The notes beneath the pieces were generated by a model. The model ran no database searches. It had not been told where the DNA came from and worked only from the letters and a program-made list of their open reading frames with translations. From Gordonibacter massiliensis (ex Traore et al. 2017) (lineage in GTDB: Bacteria > Actinomycetota > Coriobacteriia > Coriobacteriales > Eggerthellaceae): DNA of 64,000 nt. The DNA lies in the NCBI GenBank assembly GCA_900170005.1, contig LT827128.1, positions 3,034,168 through 3,098,167 on the forward strand. The letters are read 5' to 3'. The position numbers and the translations under genes are program-made. Of this stretch, positions 20,867-29,293 are shown in pieces; position 1 is the stretch's first letter; the number at the start of each line of letters is the position of its first letter.

Positions 20867-23296
20867 ATGTATCAGGTTCAGAAGCGCGACGGCAAGATCG
20901 CGGAATTCGACATCGCCAAGATCTCGTCCGCCATCGCCAAAGCATTCGACGCGTTGGAGAAGCAGTACCATCCTTCCACGATCGACCTTCTGGCCCTGAA
21001 CGTGACCGCGCACTTCGAGCCCCGTATCAAAGACGGCATCATCAGCGTCGAGGACGTGCAGGACAGCGTCGAGGAAGTGCTCTCCACGGCCGGGTATGCC
21101 GACGTGGCGAAGTCCTACATCCTCTACCGTCGCCAGCGCGAGAAGGTGCGCAACGCCAAGGCCACGCTGCTCGACTACAAGGACCTCGTCGACCAGTACG
21201 TCAAGGTGGAGGACTGGCGCGTGAAGGAGAACTCCACGGTCACGTACTCCGTGGGCGGCCTCATCCTGTCGAACTCCGGCGCCATCACGGCGAACTACTG
21301 GCTGTCCGAGATCTACGACGACGAGGTGGCCAACGCCCACCGCAACGCCGACATTCACCTGCACGACCTGTCCATGCTCACGGGCTACTGCGCGGGCTGG
21401 TCGCTCAAGCAGCTCATCCAGGAGGGCCTGGGCGGCGTGCCCGGCAAGATCACGTCGAAGCCGGCCAGCCACCTGTCCAGCCTGTGCAACCAGATGGTGA
21501 ACTTCCTCGGCATCATGCAGAACGAATGGGCCGGCGCCCAGGCGTTCAGCAGCTTCGACACCTACCTCGCCCCGTTCGTGAAGGTCGACGACCTCACGTA
21601 CGAGGAGACGAAGCAGTGCATCGAGTCGTTCGTGTTCGGCGTGAACACCCCGTCGCGCTGGGGCACGCAGGCGCCGTTTTCCAACATCACGCTCGACTGG
21701 GTGTGCCCGGCCGACCTGCGCGACCAGCCTGCCATCGTGGGCGGACGCGAGATGGGCTTCACCTACGGCGACTGCACGCGCGAGATGGACATGGTGAACA
21801 AGGCGTTCATCGAGATCATGATCGAGGGCGACGCGAACGGCCGCGGGTTCCAGTACCCCATTCCCACGTACTCCATCACGCGTGATTTCGACTGGAGCGA
21901 CACCGAGAACAACCGCCTGCTGTTCGAGATGACGTCGAAGTACGGCACGCCCTACTTCTCCAACTACATCAACTCCGACATGGAGCCGTCCGACGTGCGC
22001 TCCATGTGCTGCCGCCTGCGCCTCGACCTGCGCGAGCTGCGCAAGAAGTCGGGCGGGTTCTTCGGCAGCGGCGAGTCCACGGGCTCCATCGGCGTCGTGA
22101 CCATCAACATGCCGCGCATCGCGTACCAGGCGGTGGACGAGGCCGACTTCTACCGCCGCCTCAACCACCTCATGGACGTGTCCGCGCGCTCGCTGCACAC
22201 GAAGCGCGAGGTCATCACGCGCCTGCTGGACGCCGGCCTCTACCCGTACACGAAGCGCTACCTGGGCACGTTCGAGAACCACTTCAGCACCATCGGCCTG
22301 GTGGGCATGAACGAGGCGTGCCTGAACGCCCGCTGGCTGCGCGCCGACATGACGCAGGAGGCCGCGCAGGCGTTCACGAAGGACGTGCTGAACCACATGC
22401 GCGAGCGTTTGGCCGACTACCAGGAGGAATACGGCGACCTGTACAACTTGGAGGCCACCCCGGCCGAGAGCACCACGTACCGCTTCGCCAAGCACGACAA
22501 GGAGCAGTTCCCCGACATCGTCACCGCCAACGACCAGGGTTCGCCGTACTACACGAACTCGTCGCACCTGCCGGTGAGCTACACCGACGACATCTTCAGC
22601 GCGCTCGACGTGCAGGACGAGCTGCAGACGTTGTACACGTCTGGCACGGTGTTCCACGCGTTCCTGGGCGAGAAGCTGCCCGACTGGCAGAGCACGGCCA
22701 CGCTGGTGCGCAAGATCGCCGAGAACTACAAGCTGCCGTATTACACCATGTCGCCCACGTATTCCGTGTGCAAGAACCACGGCTACATCGCCGGCGAGGT
22801 GTACGAGTGCCCCTGCTGCCACGAGGAGACGGAGGTGTACTCGCGCATCACCGGCTACTACCGTCCCGTGAAGAACTGGAACGACGGCAAGTCGCAGGAG
22901 TTCGCCGACCGCGTGGAGTACGACTTGGGGCATTCGCATCTGACGCGCGAGGGCGTGCAGGTGACGGCCGCCGCTGAGCAGGCCGGGCAGGCGGGTTCGC
23001 ACGTGACGGTGCCCGAGGAGATCGCCCCCGACCACAGCACGCTGCCGGCGGGCCTGTACCTGGTGGCCACCCGCACCTGCCCGAACTGCAAGCACGCCGC
23101 CGCCCAGATGGACGAGGCCGGCATCGCCTACGAGGAGCTGTTGGCCGAGGAGAACGTGGAGCTGGCCCAGCGCTACCGCATCATGCAGGCTCCCACGATG
23201 CTCGAGGTGGGTGCCGACGGCTCCGTGGCCATCACCGGCGGCGCGGCCCCGGTGTTCCAGCGCATCAACGAAATGAAGATGCAGGTGGTTGCTTAG
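20867..23296 (+). CDS. nrdD: Anaerobic ribonucleoside-triphosphate reductase with C-terminal glutaredoxin-like domain
   Basis: 809 residues. Class III glycyl-radical reductase making dNTPs without oxygen. An ATP-cone regulatory domain occupies about 1-90 (MYQVQKRDGKIAEFDIAKI). The catalytic barrel carries GSGESTGSIGVVTINMPR. The zinc site CPCC is at 648-651 and the radical Gly in RITGYYRP at 663. Beyond the normal end is an extra ~110-residue domain with TRTCPNCKHAA (CPNC 738-741) and MQAPTMLEV, a glutaredoxin/thioredoxin-like fold that could re-reduce the active site. Activated by NrdG, encoded 3.2 kb downstream on the other strand. Confidence 0.95.
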   Translation: MYQVQKRDGKIAEFDIAKISSAIAKAFDALEKQYHPSTIDLLALNVTAHFEPRIKDGIISVEDVQDSVEEVLSTAGYADVAKSYILYRRQREKVRNAKATLLDYKDLVDQYVKVEDWRVKENSTVTYSVGGLILSNSGAITANYWLSEIYDDEVANAHRNADIHLHDLSMLTGYCAGWSLKQLIQEGLGGVPGKITSKPASHLSSLCNQMVNFLGIMQNEWAGAQAFSSFDTYLAPFVKVDDLTYEETKQCIESFVFGVNTPSRWGTQAPFSNITLDWVCPADLRDQPAIVGGREMGFTYGDCTREMDMVNKAFIEIMIEGDANGRGFQYPIPTYSITRDFDWSDTENNRLLFEMTSKYGTPYFSNYINSDMEPSDVRSMCCRLRLDLRELRKKSGGFFGSGESTGSIGVVTINMPRIAYQAVDEADFYRRLNHLMDVSARSLHTKREVITRLLDAGLYPYTKRYLGTFENHFSTIGLVGMNEACLNARWLRADMTQEAAQAFTKDVLNHMRERLADYQEEYGDLYNLEATPAESTTYRFAKHDKEQFPDIVTANDQGSPYYTNSSHLPVSYTDDIFSALDVQDELQTLYTSGTVFHAFLGEKLPDWQSTATLVRKIAENYKLPYYTMSPTYSVCKNHGYIAGEVYECPCCHEETEVYSRITGYYRPVKNWNDGKSQEFADRVEYDLGHSHLTREGVQVTAAAEQAGQAGSHVTVPEEIAPDHSTLPAGLYLVATRTCPNCKHAAAQMDEAGIAYEELLAEENVELAQRYRIMQAPTMLEVGADGSVAITGGAAPVFQRINEMKMQVVA

Positions 23297-23423: not shown

Positions 23424-23440
23424 CGTCTGGGGTCGCGCCT

Positions 23441-23475
23441 TTTGAATTGTGCACACGACGTGTGCACAATTCAAA
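23441..23475. repeat. 35-bp perfect palindrome
   Basis: Arms TTTGAATTGTGCACACG (23441-23457) and its exact complement (23459-23475) flank a single base. It sits between the nrdD terminator and the AT-rich promoter of the DUF1016 cassette. It could be an operator, a terminator-like cruciform or a recognition site; its core GTGCACAATT resembles a second palindrome inside the DUF1016 gene. Confidence 0.85.
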
Positions 23476-23519
23476 GTCATTTATATAGCATAATTTACAA
23501 ACATATGTTCCTTAAATTA

Positions 23520-23528
23520 TGATATAAT
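23520..23528 (+). promoter_or_regulatory. Extended -10 promoter of DUF1016 cassette
   Basis: TG-A-TATAAT at 23520-23528 is a perfect extended -10 element in a markedly AT-rich stretch (about 23476-23530), unlike its surroundings. No good -35 is seen, as expected for this promoter type. Start point near 23535. Confidence 0.65.
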
Positions 23529-23546
23529 CGCAGAAGAAAGAGCCAG

Positions 23547-23644
23547 TGCAAGCGCATCCTCTCCGCCGTTCCAACCGGCGGAGAGGATGCCCATAGATGG
23601 CGACGGTGTTCCGCGTCGCCCGTACCACGCTTGCAAGATCCTCT
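23547..23644 (+). ncRNA. Three-way-junction RNA, unknown class
   Basis: P1 TGCAAGCG (23547-23554) with CGCTTGCA (23628-23635); P2, 14 pairs, 23555-23568 with 23576-23589, loop TTCCAAC; P3 GGCGACG (23599-23605) with CGTCGCC (23614-23620). All three helices are perfect. The P2 3' strand AGAGGAT (23582-23588) can instead pair with ATCCTCT at 23638-23644, a copy of its P2 partner, giving a possible switch. No ORF is present. It starts a few bases after the predicted transcription start and ends 85 bases before the DUF1016 start codon. Confidence 0.6.
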
Positions 23645-23728
23645 AAGACAACGGAATACCCTGCGCGTATCGGCGTCTAATTCGTGCGCGTGCGCGACGC
23701 TGCAAACCGCAGAGGGGGAGGGGCGAGT

Positions 23729-24739
23729 ATGGACGATTCGATGGTTCGAACGGATGCCGCTGTGTATGATTCAGTGAGTAGCACGCTCAAGATGGCGCGA
23801 AAGAAAGTCGCTACTGCGGTGAACGCTGCTATGGTTGAGGCTTATTGGGAGATCGGCCGACAGATCGTGGAGGCGCAAGGAGATCGCGCCGAATACGGGA
23901 AACACCTGATAGAGTATTTGTCCGAAAGATTAACGAGAGAGTTTGGAAAAGGCTTCAACGAACGCAATCTTTGGCATATGAGGCAGTTGCATTTAACGTT
24001 TCCAATTCTGAGCACAATGTGCTCAGAATTGAGCTGGTCGCACTATCGCCTGCTCATTCGTGTGGAAGACGAAAAGAAGCGCACCTTCTACATGCAAGAA
24101 GCCGTCAGTCAGCAATGGACGGTTCGCCAGCTCGACCGCGAGATTCACTCGTTTTACTACGAGCGTCTACTTGCCACGCGCGAAGAAGGCAGAGAGTCCG
24201 TTCGGCAAGAAATCAAGGAGCTCGAGCCGCCCACCAAAGCCGATGGCCTTCTCAAAGACCCCTACGTGCTCGACTTCCTGGACATGGGCGGCCGCACCGA
24301 TTACCGGGAGGACGAGCTGGAGCAGGCCCTCATGGATCGACTGCAGGAATTTCTCTTGGAGATGGGCAAGGGCTTCGCGTTCGTTGCGCGCCAGCAACGT
24401 ATCGCCGCCGAGACTGACAACTACTACGTAGACTTGGTGTTCTACAACTGCATCCTCAAATGCTATGTGCTCATCGATCTTAAAACTGGCAAGATCACGC
24501 CGCAAGACGTCGGTCAGATGGACTTCTACGTCCGCCTGTTCGACGACCGCTGCGCGCAGCCAGATGATAACCCCACTATCGGCATCATCCTCTGCGCGAC
24601 AAAGGACGCCACGGTGGCAAAGTACTCGGCCCTCGCCGACGACAAGGGCCTGTTCGCCTCACGCTACACGCTCTGTCTGCCAACGGAGGAGGAGATCGCC
24701 CAAGCACTTGAGCCTACGAGCGCATTGTTTTTGAAGTGA
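23729..24739 (+). CDS. DUF1016 (YhcG-type) PD-(D/E)XK nuclease-like protein
   Basis: 336 residues. The N-terminal domain (about 20-170) has AYWEIGRQIVEAQ, FGKGFNERNLWHMRQ and SELSWSHYRLLIRV, the standard DUF1016_N signature. The C-terminal domain carries the nuclease core YVDLVFYN (Asp235) and LIDLKTGKITPQDVGQMDFY (Asp250, Lys252). The family is predicted to act on DNA and is scattered by horizontal transfer, often near defence genes. ATG 23729 has GAGGGGGAGGGG. It lies in an AT-richer insert between nrdD and a sigma-factor unit and contains an internal palindrome at 24003-24031. Confidence 0.9.
   Translation: MDDSMVRTDAAVYDSVSSTLKMARKKVATAVNAAMVEAYWEIGRQIVEAQGDRAEYGKHLIEYLSERLTREFGKGFNERNLWHMRQLHLTFPILSTMCSELSWSHYRLLIRVEDEKKRTFYMQEAVSQQWTVRQLDREIHSFYYERLLATREEGRESVRQEIKELEPPTKADGLLKDPYVLDFLDMGGRTDYREDELEQALMDRLQEFLLEMGKGFAFVARQQRIAAETDNYYVDLVFYNCILKCYVLIDLKTGKITPQDVGQMDFYVRLFDDRCAQPDDNPTIGIILCATKDATVAKYSALADDKGLFASRYTLCLPTEEEIAQALEPTSALFLK
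24003..24031. repeat. Palindrome inside DUF1016 gene
   Basis: CAATTCTGAGCAC (24003-24015), AAT, and the exact complement of the first arm (24019-24031). It encodes the stretch just before the SELSWSHY motif, about residues 92-101. Its arms share GTGC-x-CA and AATT with the 35-bp palindrome at 23441-23475. Confidence 0.75.
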
Positions 24740-24798: not shown

Positions 24799-25902
24799 CT
24801 ACGCCTCGGTTTCGGTGATGGTGTAAAGCGTCGGCCAGAGAGCCCGCGGGTTCTTGTAGCTCTCGGCGCTGAAGTCGGCGTAGCGTTGCTCGAAATCTTC
24901 AACGGGTGCGATGATGTACGATTTGGTTTCGGTGGAGCCGTCGTCGAACGTCACCGTCAGTGTAAGGGGGGACTTGGACAGTATCTCGCCGTAGCGGCGC
25001 AAGATGATCTGCCCAAGCTCGTCGTTGAGCGTTTTCAGCTCGATGTCGGACAAGAGCTCCGGATGCTCGCTGCGCGGGATTTGCGTGGTTCCGCCATCAG
25101 GAGCTAGACTATCGTAAACCTCCTTCTGCTTCTCATAATCCCTTTTGAGGACCGTCCATATTTCGATTGCTCGCCCTTCCAAGGGGAAATACGCCATCAA
25201 CTTCCGCTGCATCTTCGTCTTGTCGGCGGTCTGTTCACCGTAGGCGATGGTGAAGCTGTCCTGCTCCTTGAAATCAACCGGACGCCTGTCGTTCGGCCCG
25301 TAGGTACGGTTTTCGGTGGTGAAATGCACGCCCTCGCCGTCGATGGAGTAGGTGACGGACCGTATGTTGTTTCCGACGCACGTCAGATCGAGAAAGTAGC
25401 CTACCTGGGCGTAGCATGTTCCGTCGTCGCCCACCGAGTTAGGCGAATCTCCATCCTCGTGGGAAAGGCCGGTTTCGGCATCGTAGCTACCCCACGACCA
25501 GCCGCCGCCAATCCCGAAGTTCTTAAACTCGAGCGTCGCCGATTGCTCCAGCTTCCCCTCGCCCTGCTCTGCAGCGTAAGCGGCAAGCGTGAAGAAGTTG
25601 CCCGAGGTGGGAAGGGATGCTTTAATGGTGGAGTCGGAAGGCAGCGCGTTGGGCCAAAAAACGGCGTTGCCGGCGAATGCCAGCCCCACCGCCAACACGA
25701 CCGCGCACGCCGCTGCTGCGACGCCTCGTACGAGGGGATGGCTCTTCTTGGTGGTCCGCGTATGCGGCGAGGTTGTTGCGTTCCCAGCCCGCTGCCCCTC
25801 CTGCGCCTGCTCGACTTCTCGCATCACGTTCTCGCGCACGCGATCTGGCAGCTCAACGTCGCTCATCAGCGAGTGGTAGTCGTCCATATTCGTCTGTTTC
25901 AC
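24799..25902 (-). CDS. Membrane-anchored anti-sigma-like protein (pair 1)
   Basis: 367 residues. A short cytoplasmic N-terminus (MDDYHSLMSDVELPDRVREN) that could bind a sigma factor, one membrane helix at about 56-82 (GVAAAACAVVLAVGLAFAG), then a ~280-residue extracytoplasmic part ending APVEDFEQRYADF and LYTITE. The C-terminal domain closely resembles that of the protein at 27494-28540, so they are paralogs. GTG 25902 has GGAGGC and overlaps the sigma gene by 50 bases. Role as anti-sigma is inferred from position and layout. Confidence 0.7.
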   Translation of the reverse strand: MKQTNMDDYHSLMSDVELPDRVRENVMREVEQAQEGQRAGNATTSPHTRTTKKSHPLVRGVAAAACAVVLAVGLAFAGNAVFWPNALPSDSTIKASLPTSGNFFTLAAYAAEQGEGKLEQSATLEFKNFGIGGGWSWGSYDAETGLSHEDGDSPNSVGDDGTCYAQVGYFLDLTCVGNNIRSVTYSIDGEGVHFTTENRTYGPNDRRPVDFKEQDSFTIAYGEQTADKTKMQRKLMAYFPLEGRAIEIWTVLKRDYEKQKEVYDSLAPDGGTTQIPRSEHPELLSDIELKTLNDELGQIILRRYGEILSKSPLTLTVTFDDGSTETKSYIIAPVEDFEQRYADFSAESYKNPRALWPTLYTITETEA

Positions 25903-26407
25903 GTTTTGCCTCCTGTTCCAGATCGAGCTTGAGCTTCTTGCGTGCGCGGTGGAGCCGGGTGCGCACAGTGGAGGGATTGCAGCGGGTGAGACGCGCTATC
26001 TCATCAACGGGATACCCTTCGAAATAGTAAAGATGCACGACAAGCCGCAGCTGTTTGGGCAGGCGACTCACGGCTTCCCAAACGTCGCTGGCAACGAGCT
26101 CCTGCAAGGGGGCCTCGATGTTCGCCAGCTCGGGAGAGGCGGTGTCCGTTGCGTCGACACGGCGTTTCCAAGCGGATCGGCGCAACTCCTTGCAGCGATT
26201 GACGGTAACGCGGATGAGCCATGCTTTCAGGTGCTCGTCATCGCGAAACACCGGCGGATTGTTCAATAGCTTCAAGAACACGTCCTGCGCGACGTCGTCC
26301 GCGTCTTGGGGCGAGCGCGTCTGGTTCAGAGCGAGCCGATATACCATAGCGCCCCATGAGTCCATGGCGCGCTCGATGAACGTCGTCGCTCTCGCGTTGG
26401 CTCTCAT
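25853..26407 (-). CDS. ECF sigma factor (pair 1)
   Basis: 184 residues. Region 2 reads AMVYRLALNQTRSPQDADDVAQDVFLKL and continues HLKAWLIRVTVNRCKEL; region 4 reads LPKQLRLVVHLYYFEGYPVDEIARL then STVRTRLHRARKKL. This is a complete sigma-70 ECF protein with no extra domains. ATG 26407 with AAGGGG upstream is chosen over an in-frame GTG at 26428. It is followed by, and overlaps, the membrane partner gene. No promoter motif of its own could be defined. Confidence 0.88.
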   Translation of the reverse strand: MRANARATTFIERAMDSWGAMVYRLALNQTRSPQDADDVAQDVFLKLLNNPPVFRDDEHLKAWLIRVTVNRCKELRRSAWKRRVDATDTASPELANIEAPLQELVASDVWEAVSRLPKQLRLVVHLYYFEGYPVDEIARLTRCNPSTVRTRLHRARKKLKLDLEQEAKRETDEYGRLPLADERR

Positions 26408-26551
26408 GTTCGCATCACCCCTTCGCACTCTAACATGCGACAGAAGAGCGGAATGTTCCCGGAATCGGAGAAAACGGTGGGGAAGCGATGAATTCTCGAA
26501 TGAGGGTTTTCGCTTAAGCGCTTTGCATCTGAGTGAGGGGACGCCGCATTG

Positions 26552-27253
26552 CTAGACCCCGCGCAAGCGGGTGTTGGGGACGGCTTGTTGCAGCTCGGGC
26601 AGCAGCGTTTCCAGTTCGTCGGGGGTGTAAGCGTGCAGGGTGCCCGCTCCGGCGAGCACGGTGTCGGCGTCGACGAAGCTTTGCAGGTGCCAGGCGCTTG
26701 CGCCGGCTATCCAGTGGGAAAGGGCCACAAGATCGGCGAGCGTATGCAGTTCGCGCACGACGGTGGTACGGAACTCGTAGGGCACGGCACCCGACAGCAA
26801 GTAGCTGATCGAATCGCTGATGGGGGCTATGTCGAAGCCGGGCACGCCCACGGTTTCCGCATAGCGTTCGGGTGCGTTCTTCACGTCCATGGCCACGTAG
26901 TCCACGAGCTCCGCTTCCACGAGCGCTCGCAGCGCTTCGGGGAAGCTGCCGTTCGTGTCCAGCTTCACGCTGAAACCCGCGCGCTTGATGCGTGTGCAGA
27001 AGTCGGCGAGATCAGGCTGGAGCAGCGGTTCGCCACCGGTGATGCACACGCCATCGAGCAGGCCATGCCGCTTGTCCAAGAATGCGAAGAACTCCTCGAC
27101 CGTTGTGTCGCCGGACGTGTCGTTCGGATCCAGCACGAGCGCGGCGTTGTGGCAGAATGGGCAACGGAAGTTGCAGCCCGGAAGAAACACGGTGGCCGCC
27201 GTATGCTCGGGGAAGTCCAGCAACGTCAGCTTCTGCAATCCGGCTATTCTCAT
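26552..27253 (-). CDS. nrdG: Anaerobic RNR-activating protein
   Basis: 233 residues. Radical-SAM activase that installs the glycyl radical on NrdD. The cluster motif is LPGCNFRCPFCHN (C-x3-C-x2-C), followed by GVCITGGEPLLQPDL for SAM binding and VKLDTNGSFPEAL. ATG 27253 has AAGGAGC. Unusually it is not cotranscribed with nrdD: it is on the opposite strand, with the DUF1016 cassette and a sigma/anti-sigma pair between them. Confidence 0.92.
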   Translation of the reverse strand: MRIAGLQKLTLLDFPEHTAATVFLPGCNFRCPFCHNAALVLDPNDTSGDTTVEEFFAFLDKRHGLLDGVCITGGEPLLQPDLADFCTRIKRAGFSVKLDTNGSFPEALRALVEAELVDYVAMDVKNAPERYAETVGVPGFDIAPISDSISYLLSGAVPYEFRTTVVRELHTLADLVALSHWIAGASAWHLQSFVDADTVLAGAGTLHAYTPDELETLLPELQQAVPNTRLRGV

Positions 27254-27359
27254 GAGGCGGCTCCTTGGATGTGCGGTGGGAGCCCGACGTGCCGCCGGGC
27301 TCCCGTCATCATAAGCTGCGATCGCTCATTCCGCAAACGCACGCATCTCCCTGGTGGAA

Positions 27360-27391
27360 CGTAGGGGCGGCCTGCTGGCCGCCCGGCGCGG
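27360..27391. repeat. REP-like palindrome, family C copy 1
   Basis: CGTAGGGGCGGCC-TGCT-GGCCGCCCGGCGCGG, in the 240-base gap between nrdG and the pair-2 anti-sigma gene, which otherwise holds no gene. Other copies: 46598, 47493 and 56174. The stem sequence changes between copies but stays self-complementary. Confidence 0.7.
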
Positions 27392-27493
27392 CAAGTTGCG
27401 GCGGCTGAAAACAATGCAGCGAGCGTACGGCGCGCTCGCTGCAATATCTCGTGTTGTCGAACGTTTCGGCACCGGTCAGCCAGTAGGCTGTCT

Positions 27494-28540
27494 CTACGAG
27501 AGCTCCGTGATCGTGAAAAGCGGAGTGGCTAAAGCAGGGTCGTTTTCGTCATGATCCGGCGTGAACGATACGTCCAAAAATGTTTTACATTTTTGTTCGA
27601 AGTCCTCTACAGGAGCAATGCGGTAGTTCTTGGTGGCGGTGGTCCCGTCGGTGAACGTCGCCGTGACGGACAAGGTTGCATTTGCAAGCTTTTGAGCGGC
27701 TTCGGTCACTTTTGAAGCGAACCACGTATTGTTGTCGATCTTTCCGCTCATCAAGTCGCCACCATAGTAGGCATTGTTTAGCTCTGTGGACTCGACAGAC
27801 AGCTCATTCAATTGGTCCTGCAGGGCTGCGGCTGCGTCAGGGTCTTCGGTGGCTTCAAGCTGGCGGTGGAGGTCGCTTATCTGCTGTTTGTTTTCCGTTA
27901 TCGCCGGATCGGCCGTGTTGACGAGTATCTCTCGACGAAGACCCTCGGGGTTTTGGTCATCATAATCTACTTCAAACTGGGCGGGTGTATCCATTACGGG
28001 CTGCGATGCGTCTTGGGATATGTCAAAGCCCATAAACCTCACGTCGTCACCTTCAATGGCGTACGAGAGATGCTTGATGCTTTCACCGGCGCAGGTTAGG
28101 TTCATGGCGAAACGGATGTCGAAGCCGCCGTTGCCAGCAAGGCTGATGCCCGATTCGTCGGTCGAAAGAGCGATGCTCTGCCCGGGCTCAGCCGCTTCGG
28201 CCACTGCGAGGCCGAACGGATTGGCGAAGGATGGCGATAGCGTTGTATCTGCACCGCCATTGTTGTTGGACGATAGGGCGAGGGGGCTCAAAGCCAAGGC
28301 GCCAGCTCCCAAAGCCAAAACGGCGCAAGCGGCGATGGCAAAACCTTTGACGCGGGTGCGCTTGGCGGAAAAGACTGGTGCGGCTGTGGGACGGACGGGT
28401 TTCGCGCTGCGAGTCGCATTTGCCGAAGCACTCGCTGCCGATTGCGCGCGCGCCTGTTCGAGCACTTGTTCGGGCAGGTGGGCGGGTGCGTGGGTGTCGT
28501 TCATCATGGATTGGTAGCGGTTCAGGGGATCTTCGTTCAT
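27494..28540 (-). CDS. Membrane-anchored anti-sigma-like protein (pair 2)
   Basis: 348 residues. Cytoplasmic N-terminus MNEDPLNRYQSMMNDTHAP, a basic linker, one membrane helix at about 67-87 (GFAIAACAVLALGAGALALS), then an extracytoplasmic domain with a coiled-coil-like stretch (QQISDLHRQLEATEDPD) and the ending APVEDFEQKCKTF and PLFTITELS shared with the pair-1 protein. ATG 28540 has GGAGG and overlaps the sigma gene stop as ATGA. Confidence 0.7.
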   Translation of the reverse strand: MNEDPLNRYQSMMNDTHAPAHLPEQVLEQARAQSAASASANATRSAKPVRPTAAPVFSAKRTRVKGFAIAACAVLALGAGALALSPLALSSNNNGGADTTLSPSFANPFGLAVAEAAEPGQSIALSTDESGISLAGNGGFDIRFAMNLTCAGESIKHLSYAIEGDDVRFMGFDISQDASQPVMDTPAQFEVDYDDQNPEGLRREILVNTADPAITENKQQISDLHRQLEATEDPDAAAALQDQLNELSVESTELNNAYYGGDLMSGKIDNNTWFASKVTEAAQKLANATLSVTATFTDGTTATKNYRIAPVEDFEQKCKTFLDVSFTPDHDENDPALATPLFTITELS

Positions 28541-29187
28541 GAAAGGCCTCCTTTCGAAGGGAGGATGGAGGGAATCGGTTGGGGTTGGTCCGTGCAGCGC
28601 AAGACGCTGATGTTGGGCGGACGAGGCTTGGCCGGCGTGTCGGGTCGTCCGGTCGTTTCAGGCTCGGCTTGCAACCCTTCCTTGAGCGTATCGCCTTCCA
28701 GCAGCTCTTTGATGCGGGCTCGGGCGCGGAACAGCCAGGTTCTGGCCGTCGCGGGCCGGCAGTCGAGCGCGCGTGCGATCTCGTCGGTGGAATACCCCTC
28801 CACATAGTGCAGGTGCACAGCCGTGCGCTGCTGCTCGGGCAGCTGGCCCACGGCGTCCCATACGGCGGCGTCCTCATCGTCGCGCGCGGGGGTGTCGGGC
28901 GCGTCCCATTCGGGGTCGAGGGCGACGGTGCGGCGCTTCCAGCCCGATCGCGCCAGGTCGCGACATCGATTCACGGTCACGCGCAGCAGCCATGCCTTCA
29001 CGTGCTCGGGGCTCTCGAACGCCGTGGCGTCGTTATGCAACTTCAGGAACACGTCCTGGTACACGTCTTCCGCATCGGCGCGCGACCGCGTTTGGCTGAG
29101 CGCCAGCCGGTACACCGCGTCGCCCCAATCGGCCATAGCCTGCCTGAGAAACGCCTCCGCGTCCGTTCGATCTTCGTGGTTCGGCAT
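28537..29187 (-). CDS. ECF sigma factor (pair 2)
   Basis: 216 residues. Region 2: AVYRLALSQTRSRADAEDVYQDVFLKL and VKAWLLRVTVNRCRDL; region 4: LPEQQRTAVHLHYVEGYSTDEIARAL and ATARTWLFRARARIKELL. A ~45-residue Pro-rich C-terminal tail follows region 4. ATG 29187 has a perfect AAGGAGG. Translationally coupled to its membrane partner. Closely related to the pair-1 and pair-3 factors. Confidence 0.9.
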   Translation of the reverse strand: MPNHEDRTDAEAFLRQAMADWGDAVYRLALSQTRSRADAEDVYQDVFLKLHNDATAFESPEHVKAWLLRVTVNRCRDLARSGWKRRTVALDPEWDAPDTPARDDEDAAVWDAVGQLPEQQRTAVHLHYVEGYSTDEIARALDCRPATARTWLFRARARIKELLEGDTLKEGLQAEPETTGRPDTPAKPRPPNISVLRCTDQPQPIPSILPSKGGLS

Positions 29188-29293
29188 GTTTTCACCTCCT
29201 TGAAGAAGCATACGATTCAGAAAGCCCGCATGTTTCGGAGGATGGAAAAGAGTGCGAAAAAGAACGCCGCGGCCGGTGACGTGCCTTCCATCT

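Follow-up and report, generated by a model that had tools for sequence, protein, structure and literature searches.

The 64,000-nucleotide stretch of the Gordonibacter massiliensis genome analysed here (contig LT827128.1; hereafter the window) raises the question of what lies between nrdD and the gene of a DUF1016 (YhcG) nuclease. A sequence-only reading had placed a three-way-junction RNA there, at 23547-23644, and had proposed that it regulates the nuclease or acts as its partner. Our analysis reveals that the stretch between the two genes contains a promoter and a structured RNA, and that the earlier observation is real and larger than stated, while its interpretation is partly supported. 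The LexA-type box, the pseudoknot, the closing helix P0 and the unrelated toxin-like genes downstream of other copies had all been missed. We consider the RNA to be probably a new class of cis-acting leader that gates how toxin-like genes, most of them transcribed under SOS control, are translated.

A covarying RNA with a three-way junction and a pseudoknot

The three perfect helices of 8, 14 and 7 pairs described before (P1, P2 and P3) are present, and the 98-nucleotide (nt) fold reaches -55.0 kcal/mol, compared with -29.8 +/- 3.3 kcal/mol for dinucleotide shuffles (z -7.68; none of 200 shuffles is as stable). The minimum-energy fold shows the stack as 7+15+7 because G23554 has two possible partners. 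In addition to P1-P3, the whole conserved RNA, around 120 nt long, has a closing helix of 4 bp (P0) and a pseudoknot. The interval reported before is too short, with P0 and the pseudoknot lying partly beyond it (Table 1).

Conservation of the helices in homologous loci, on which the proposal had been made to depend, was found. The covariance model R1 comprises 52 sequences and 25 pairs, and covariation was counted in a 101-row alignment fitted to R1 (99 distinct rows). In this alignment 91.2% of the cells are paired versus 77.4% in shuffles, 386 cells are doubly changed versus 120, and 21 of the 25 pairs show two-sided changes; the pairing and double-change values were reached by none of 500 shuffles. 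Sliding the partners by 1-3 columns left 31-54% of the cells paired, and a MAFFT alignment gave a similar outcome (90.6% versus 81.0%). G-U pairs occur in the alignment. P0, discovered via the alignment, has an outer pair with two-sided changes in 20 of 98 rows and no pairing in 18 of 98; its inner three pairs are almost fixed, which suggests an additional role of the sequence itself.

The loop of P3 pairs with a strand located a few nucleotides 3' of AGAUCCUC, and farther away where bases are inserted. An anchored test of this pseudoknot covered 108 of the 113 copies described below, leaving out one unsegmented copy and four without CC in the loop (L158, L160, L168 and L169). Of the 108 copies, 99 and 88 preserve the respective two pairs inside CC:GG, compared with at most 85 and 67 across 2000 shuffles; the flanking pairs are preserved in 72 and 67 (at most 64 and 60 in shuffles). 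The pairing types include GUUCC/GGAAC, CUCCG/CGGAG, GCUCC/GGAGC, UGCCCU/AGGGCA and CCCCU/AGGGG, among others. The anchored test replaced an earlier, cruder one (mean 14.7 versus 12.2 permuted, 112 copies). Collectively, P1-P3 and the pseudoknot covary strongly. By eye, six copies (L026, L027, L030, L054, L058 and L064) have extra bases inside the AGAUC/CUCU strand, 5' of the pseudoknot strand, and these carry repeated or self-complementary GAUC.

The duplicated ATCCTCT, which had been offered as an alternative pairing partner of P2 in a switch, does exist (23556-23562 and 23638-23644). Watson-Crick pairing of at least 6 between P2 and AGATCCTCT occurs in only 2 of 113 copies, those of the window and L037, so the alternative pairing is a trait of the window copy and not of the RNA family.

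The statement that no known RNA class is involved proved correct: at gathering scores, Rfam 15 matched nothing in the window, and its matches across 20 further loci, a tRNA (L163 761-841) and a SAM riboswitch (L011 1133-1225), fall outside the element. Relaxing the threshold to E 5 brought up eight weak matches in three loci; two of these matches are a microRNA model over P2, one on each strand.

A DNA search of the source genome gave additional copies. The covariance models settle on four, which precede the DUF1016 gene of the window, a gene of an unknown 285-residue family (L010), DinD (L011) and a DUF559-like gene (L049); model R2 found no additional copy in this genome. DNA similarity alone matched 37 of 138 Eggerthellaceae genomes, and R1 matched 50 of 138, in 22 of 48 genera, with 121 matches and 1-9 per matching genome. 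The working sample of 113 elements consists of 112 of these 121 matches and L114 from a sister family; of the nine matches outside it, eight were not retrieved and one partial copy (L079) was dropped. Near-identical copies from sister species are in the sample, so that the counts given here do not represent independent events.

Beyond the family, a class-wide sample at E 0.01 matched in 43 of 346 genomes, 38 in Eggerthellaceae and five in two other families of the order, one of the five being weak. A phylum-wide sample at E 0.001 gave seven of 396 genomes, all Eggerthellaceae; the large genome-set searches used stricter filters, which weak copies may escape. In the order's second family, R2 matched 6 of 140 genomes, strongly in G375 (96.7 bits) and at 33-37 bits in five others; G358, a weak match in the class sample, is missing from these. 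An exact-pattern scan of one genome per species (about 85,000) returned 53 stretches. Those with genus-named titles are nearly all from Eggerthellaceae (Gordonibacter, Eggerthella, Paraeggerthella, Adlercreutzia, Senegalimassilia, Rubneribacter, Raoultibacter, Enteroscipio and others). Other lineages contribute three stretches, from Vreelandella, Rathayibacter and Catellatospora; among the 11 of 53 stretches scored with the model, these yielded 14.1 bits, nothing at E 1 and 17.9 bits, and look like chance matches. An exact 21-nt pattern was absent from viral contigs, and phages and plasmids gave no blastn match to 176 bases of the window, although divergent copies could escape both searches. 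As far as these searches indicate, the RNA class is centred on Eggerthellaceae and rare in sister families.

Promoter, LexA-type box and distance to the start codon

The extended -10 promoter described before is present ahead of the RNA. Of 112 copies, 95 have an extended -10 element (TGnTAnnnT) in this region, versus 2 of 112 shuffled ones. The element ends a median of 14 nt before GAGCC, so that only a few nucleotides should separate the transcript start from the beginning of the RNA.

Just upstream of this element lies a box, CAAACATATGTTCC, which resembles CGAACRNRYGTTYG, the sequence that we take to be the LexA-type consensus and used for scoring (of the 14 positions, 12 match on one strand and 13 on the opposite strand). 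A box of at least 11/14 was identified in 81 of 113 copies (shuffled, 6 of 113). Under a stricter rule the counts are 76 of 113 copies, 1 of 1130 shuffled upstream stretches and 1 in at most 452 upstream control stretches. By gene group, the box is found before none of the 29 DUF559-like genes and before 76 of all 84 others; L074, among the eight others without a box, has an N run upstream. The consensus is loose, with 37 sites scoring at least 12 on either strand in the window, and the argument thus rests on the fixed place of the box and on the family. The lexA gene of the source genome (L223; PF01726, 6.0e-24) has the boxes AGAACCTTTGTTCG, CGAACAAAGGTTCA and AAAACATTTGTTCG within about 100 nt upstream, which indicates that this type of box is the species' own. 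At the sequence level, the RNA locus thus carries a box like that before the species' lexA, as a member of the SOS regulon should, and LexA is predicted to bind it. The DUF559-like copies use the RNA without the box. SOS control is therefore not intrinsic to the RNA, which must have a function distinct from SOS; following two promoter types, with and without the box, it is separable from that control and may respond to a signal of its own.

Just upstream of the box in the window, 23441-23475 forms a palindrome with 17-bp arms, in the style of those inside DUF1016 genes described below; the slightly longer stretch 23440-23476, upstream of the promoter, scores as terminator-like. Similar palindromes stand outside DUF1016 genes in L002, L015, L016, L240 and L260.

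In 105 of 113 copies, a start codon with a Shine-Dalgarno (SD) sequence lies no more than 140 nt beyond the end of the model (start codons picked by script). At most 30 nt separate the pseudoknot end from this codon in 72 of 110 copies, and the overall median is 23 nt. The spacing is narrow within several groups: 6-22 nt in 22 of 27 DUF559-like copies, 19-24 nt in 14 of 16 copies with a small open reading frame (ORF), 8-28 nt in 13 of 14 copies of the 285-residue family and 21-24 nt in all five KilA-N copies. No terminator-like site was found between the RNA and the gene in the window copy.

Table 1. Features of the nrdD-DUF1016 locus, in window coordinates.
Feature	Coordinates	Strand	Details
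nrdD	20867-23296		Pfam NRDD and ATP-cone
LexA/SOS-type box CAAACATATGTTCC	23498-23511	+	Just upstream of the -10; predicted from consensus match
Extended -10, TG-A-TATAAT	23520-23528	+	Sequence
P0 5' strand AGAG	23539-23542	+	Partner 23641-23644; 94.1% of cells paired
P1 5' strand	23547-23554	+	8 pairs with 23628-23635; 98.7% paired; double changes in 6/8 pairs
P2 hairpin, variable in length and sequence	23555-23589	+	14 pairs, 23555-23568/23576-23589; double changes in 6/6 modelled basal pairs; 76.5% of cells paired
J2/3 CCCATAGAT	23590-23598	+	Conserved, model-unpaired; alignment A1
P3 hairpin	23599-23620	+	7 pairs, 23599-23605/23614-23620; 93.5% paired; 7/7 pairs with double changes; loop 23606-23613 is a pseudoknot strand
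J3/1 CGTACCA	23621-23627	+	Conserved, model-unpaired; alignment A1
P1 3' strand	23628-23635	+	Covariance alignment
AGATCCTCT, near-invariant loop and P0 3' strand (23641-23644)	23636-23644	+	Complementary to Shine-Dalgarno sequences
Pseudoknot 3' strand CGGAATAC	23652-23659	+	8 pairs with loop 23606-23613, one G-U
DUF1016 (YhcG) nuclease gene behind the leader	23729-24739	+	Pfam YhcG_C 1.1e-56, DUF1016_N 2.5e-45, both for a longer reading that starts at 23684; start ATG 23729 chosen by us, 3' of a G/A-rich stretch

Genes behind the RNA and the DUF1016 locus

Families of the genes behind the 113 copies were assigned from representatives of BLAST clusters rather than protein by protein. The largest group is the unknown 285-residue family (31 copies, including L010, L018, L019, L028 and L211), with a weak DUF6557 match, below the cut-off, for L028. 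Its predicted structure (mean predicted local distance difference test score, pLDDT, 76.7) has no match in the PDB at E 0.001, and the family is possibly a new toxin or defence gene. The DUF559/MTES_1575-like group follows with 29 copies, with below-cut-off matches for L078, a nuclease motif seen by eye and a group model of mean pLDDT 69.2. DUF1016 and DinD/Bro-N have seven copies each, the latter matching NCBIfam DNA damage-inducible protein D at 1.9e-102 for L011. KilA-N and an unknown pair starting MAEFQPDPF have five each. Cas2-like (which we take to be VapD) and PDDEXK_2 (presumably Rpn-like) have four each. An 88-residue unknown (plus one further copy that also has KilA-N) and DUF4160 with DUF2442 account for three each, and BrnT and HicA with HicB for two each. 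The remaining 11 include Gp49/HigB-like genes (L169 and, weakly, L160), a weak MazE match (L153), two copies for which our rule gave no ORF, and L150, a DUF559-like ORF without a recognised SD. In 16 copies the leading ORF is a small one of about 80 residues, all of one family; in 13 of these the 285-residue family follows. Judged from these family matches, the genes appear unrelated but alike in kind, with toxins, nucleases and phage-type proteins as their probable common theme; at least a third of them belong to the 285-residue family or are other unknowns. No metabolic theme was seen among the representatives.

The link to DUF1016 itself is local. At the nrdD-DUF1016 locus, the RNA and the gene are gained or lost together: the sister species G066 and G068 keep the order nrdD-RNA-DUF1016, G067 has the gene reduced to 214 nt at that place and the RNA gone, and G065 has neither. 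Across Eggerthellaceae, the RNA stands at 7 of 73 DUF1016 (PF06250) places, a count that includes partial ones and two below the cut-off. The covariance check upstream of other DUF1016 genes, which had been suggested as a test, thus went the other way: 66 of the 73 places, including four of five in the source genome, are without the RNA. Since, moreover, 106 of 113 copies stand before genes other than DUF1016, a partner role for DUF1016 was rejected and a specificity for PD-(D/E)XK proteins is unsupported, while the idea that the RNA regulates the nuclease gene behind it probably stands.

DUF1016 genes carry a perfect palindrome of their own, mostly with 14-bp arms and a 1-nt centre, at the same codons just before an L(S/T)W(S/T)HY motif. 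It was seen at 24003-24031 in the window and in L002, L015, L016, L017, L024, L237, L240, L245, L247 and L250. The arms vary between genes with compensation, and a palindrome of at least 11 bp is present in 14 of the 21 DUF1016 loci whose motif was recognised by script (16 of 37 loci were unrecognised, and L015 and L249 are one gene). The sequence AATTCNNNNCACNNNGTGNNNNGAATT occurs at two places in genome G000, where it corresponds to the palindromes in the window gene and in L002. The palindrome looks like a gene-specific self-site or an mRNA hairpin.

A proposed translational gate and its alternatives

In the mechanism that we propose, the leader would be the first ~120 nt of the message, comprising P0, P1, the three-way junction with P2 and P3, and the pseudoknot, whose strand usually ends about 20 nt before the start codon. 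A LexA-type box covers the upstream part of the extended -10 promoter in most copies, and with the promoter under such a box DNA damage should start transcription. The leader would serve as a second gate, the folding of P0, P1 and the pseudoknot deciding the access of 30S to the adjacent ribosome-binding site. A shared module may thereby silence unrelated toxin-like and nuclease genes until both gates open. We infer that the leader acts on translation rather than on transcription and commit to this, but not to the direction in which the gate turns or to its trigger.

Several observations weigh against this reading. The pseudoknot lies more than 30 nt from the start codon in 38 of 110 copies, including the window copy (about 70 nt), five of seven DUF1016 copies (47-72 nt) and all seven DinD copies (57-69 nt). 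All 29 DUF559-like copies are without a box, a consensus promoter scan gave only one neighbouring hexamer pair here, at chance level, and the shuffle controls ignore the relatedness of the copies. The SD is unpaired at 0.278 with the real leader, 0.329 with a shuffled one and 0.291 with a swapped one (100 copies; p 6e-5 and 0.053), and at 0.395 without a leader (100 copies). P1 often loses in full-length folds computed without the pseudoknot (mean probability 0.29). Because the effect on SD unpairing is small and P1 is disfavoured, pure SD sequestration is poorly supported, and the direction of the gate is left uncommitted for this reason. An anti-SD role of AGAUCCUCU fared no better: the 105 downstream SDs pair with it at -7.3 kcal/mol versus -5.8 for 345 control SDs, and the same SDs pair better with the 16S end too (-9.1 versus -7.7 kcal/mol). 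The effect is not specific and AGAUCCUCU is no more special than the 16S end; the anti-SD role of AGATCCTCT is weakly supported. A conserved upstream reading frame through AUAGAUGGCG was rejected by eye, as the length of the P3 loop shifts the frame and some copies have no AUG.

Which signal could set such a gate is addressed by a riboswitch reading, a sub-case of translational gating that names the trigger. The conserved junctions (CCAG/AGAUC, CCCAUAGAU and CGUACCA) would make up a binding pocket whose ligand, a small molecule or nucleotide produced during DNA damage or phage attack, would set the pseudoknot. The near-invariant unpaired nucleotides beside freely covarying helices suit such a leader, as do the compact three-way junction, the pseudoknot close to the start codon, the 5' position and the conserved junctions. 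However, the downstream genes have no metabolic theme, no Rfam family matches the RNA, and none of the eight sub-threshold matches mentioned above is a riboswitch, so that we hold this version to be on the unlikely side. A leader that protects the message, or that is activated by an RNase cut as in tisB, appears less likely still. The fold should begin at the transcript 5' end, and tisB needs both processing and a 5' pseudoknot (PMC7708055); the short spacing to the start codon (72 of 110 copies) and the variable P2 favour control of initiation over a cut site.

Action in trans, as a small RNA or as a type III-like partner or antitoxin RNA of the downstream protein, would fit the several copies per genome and the toxin-like genes behind them. 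In ToxIN, a type III system, a tandem-repeat RNA and a terminator precede the toxin gene. The RNA here likewise stands directly before toxin-like genes, but the window copy has neither a tandem array nor a terminator-like site. The downstream proteins belong to many unrelated families, which makes a common protein partner unlikely, and ToxN was not among the Pfam matches of 22 proteins tested. With an SD and a start codon close behind in 105 of 113 copies, and with most DUF1016 places lacking the RNA, we regard trans action as quite improbable. A DNA-level element, a cruciform or repeat to which the inverted repeats found by the repeat search could belong, is hardly credible given the single orientation between promoter and gene, the G-U pairs and the covarying pseudoknot.

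Structured leaders of toxin messages are an already known kind. The gene tisB of E. coli, paired with IstR1, is under LexA control and encodes a small membrane toxin. To our knowledge, one leader class over about a dozen unrelated families of such genes is without precedent, and searches of open-access papers found no description of this RNA, though it could still be among the many predictions of PMC8040213, of which the main text was covered. Pseudoknotted leaders have been described for individual type I toxin messages (PMC7708055, PMC11295053). The tisB message is induced by DNA damage, depends on a 5' pseudoknot to bind 30S and S1 and is activated by processing (PMC7708055), whereas in timP of Salmonella, paired with TimR, a leader pseudoknot activates toxin translation without processing (PMC11295053). 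The likeness to tisB, which rests on descriptions and not on a comparison of sequence or structure, lies in a DNA-damage toxin message with a structured 5' leader and pseudoknot (PMC7708055, PMC11295053); here a LexA-type box is found in the window and in 76 of 113 copies, and a leader pseudoknot is indicated by covariation. The differences are that tisB is processing-activated and has an antisense RNA antitoxin and a small membrane toxin, whereas here one leader class stands on many unrelated genes, for nucleases, toxin-antitoxin proteins, phage-type proteins and unknowns. The timP system shares the leader pseudoknot on a toxin message; it is a single gene with an RNA antitoxin, and a three-way junction is unmentioned in the sections of PMC11295053 drawn on here.

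Here a single RNA class is common to stand-alone nucleases, phage-like genes and type II toxin-antitoxin pairs, and it can serve to reveal toxin or defence genes that have gone unrecognised. A wider reading, a little more doubtful than not, is that of an AND gate on self-harmful genes, in which one ligand- or protein-sensing RNA class is the safety catch of about a dozen genes in Eggerthellaceae, unrelated to each other and of toxin, nuclease or phage type, with SOS as the first key and another, RNA-read signal as the second. Genetic tools for Eggerthella exist (PMC9734109) and make the leader testable in that genus.

Downstream of the DUF1016 gene, the minus strand of 24799-29211 holds two pairs, each of a small sigma-factor-like gene and a gene of about 350 residues that is anti-sigma-like by eye; similar stretches occur elsewhere in the source genome.
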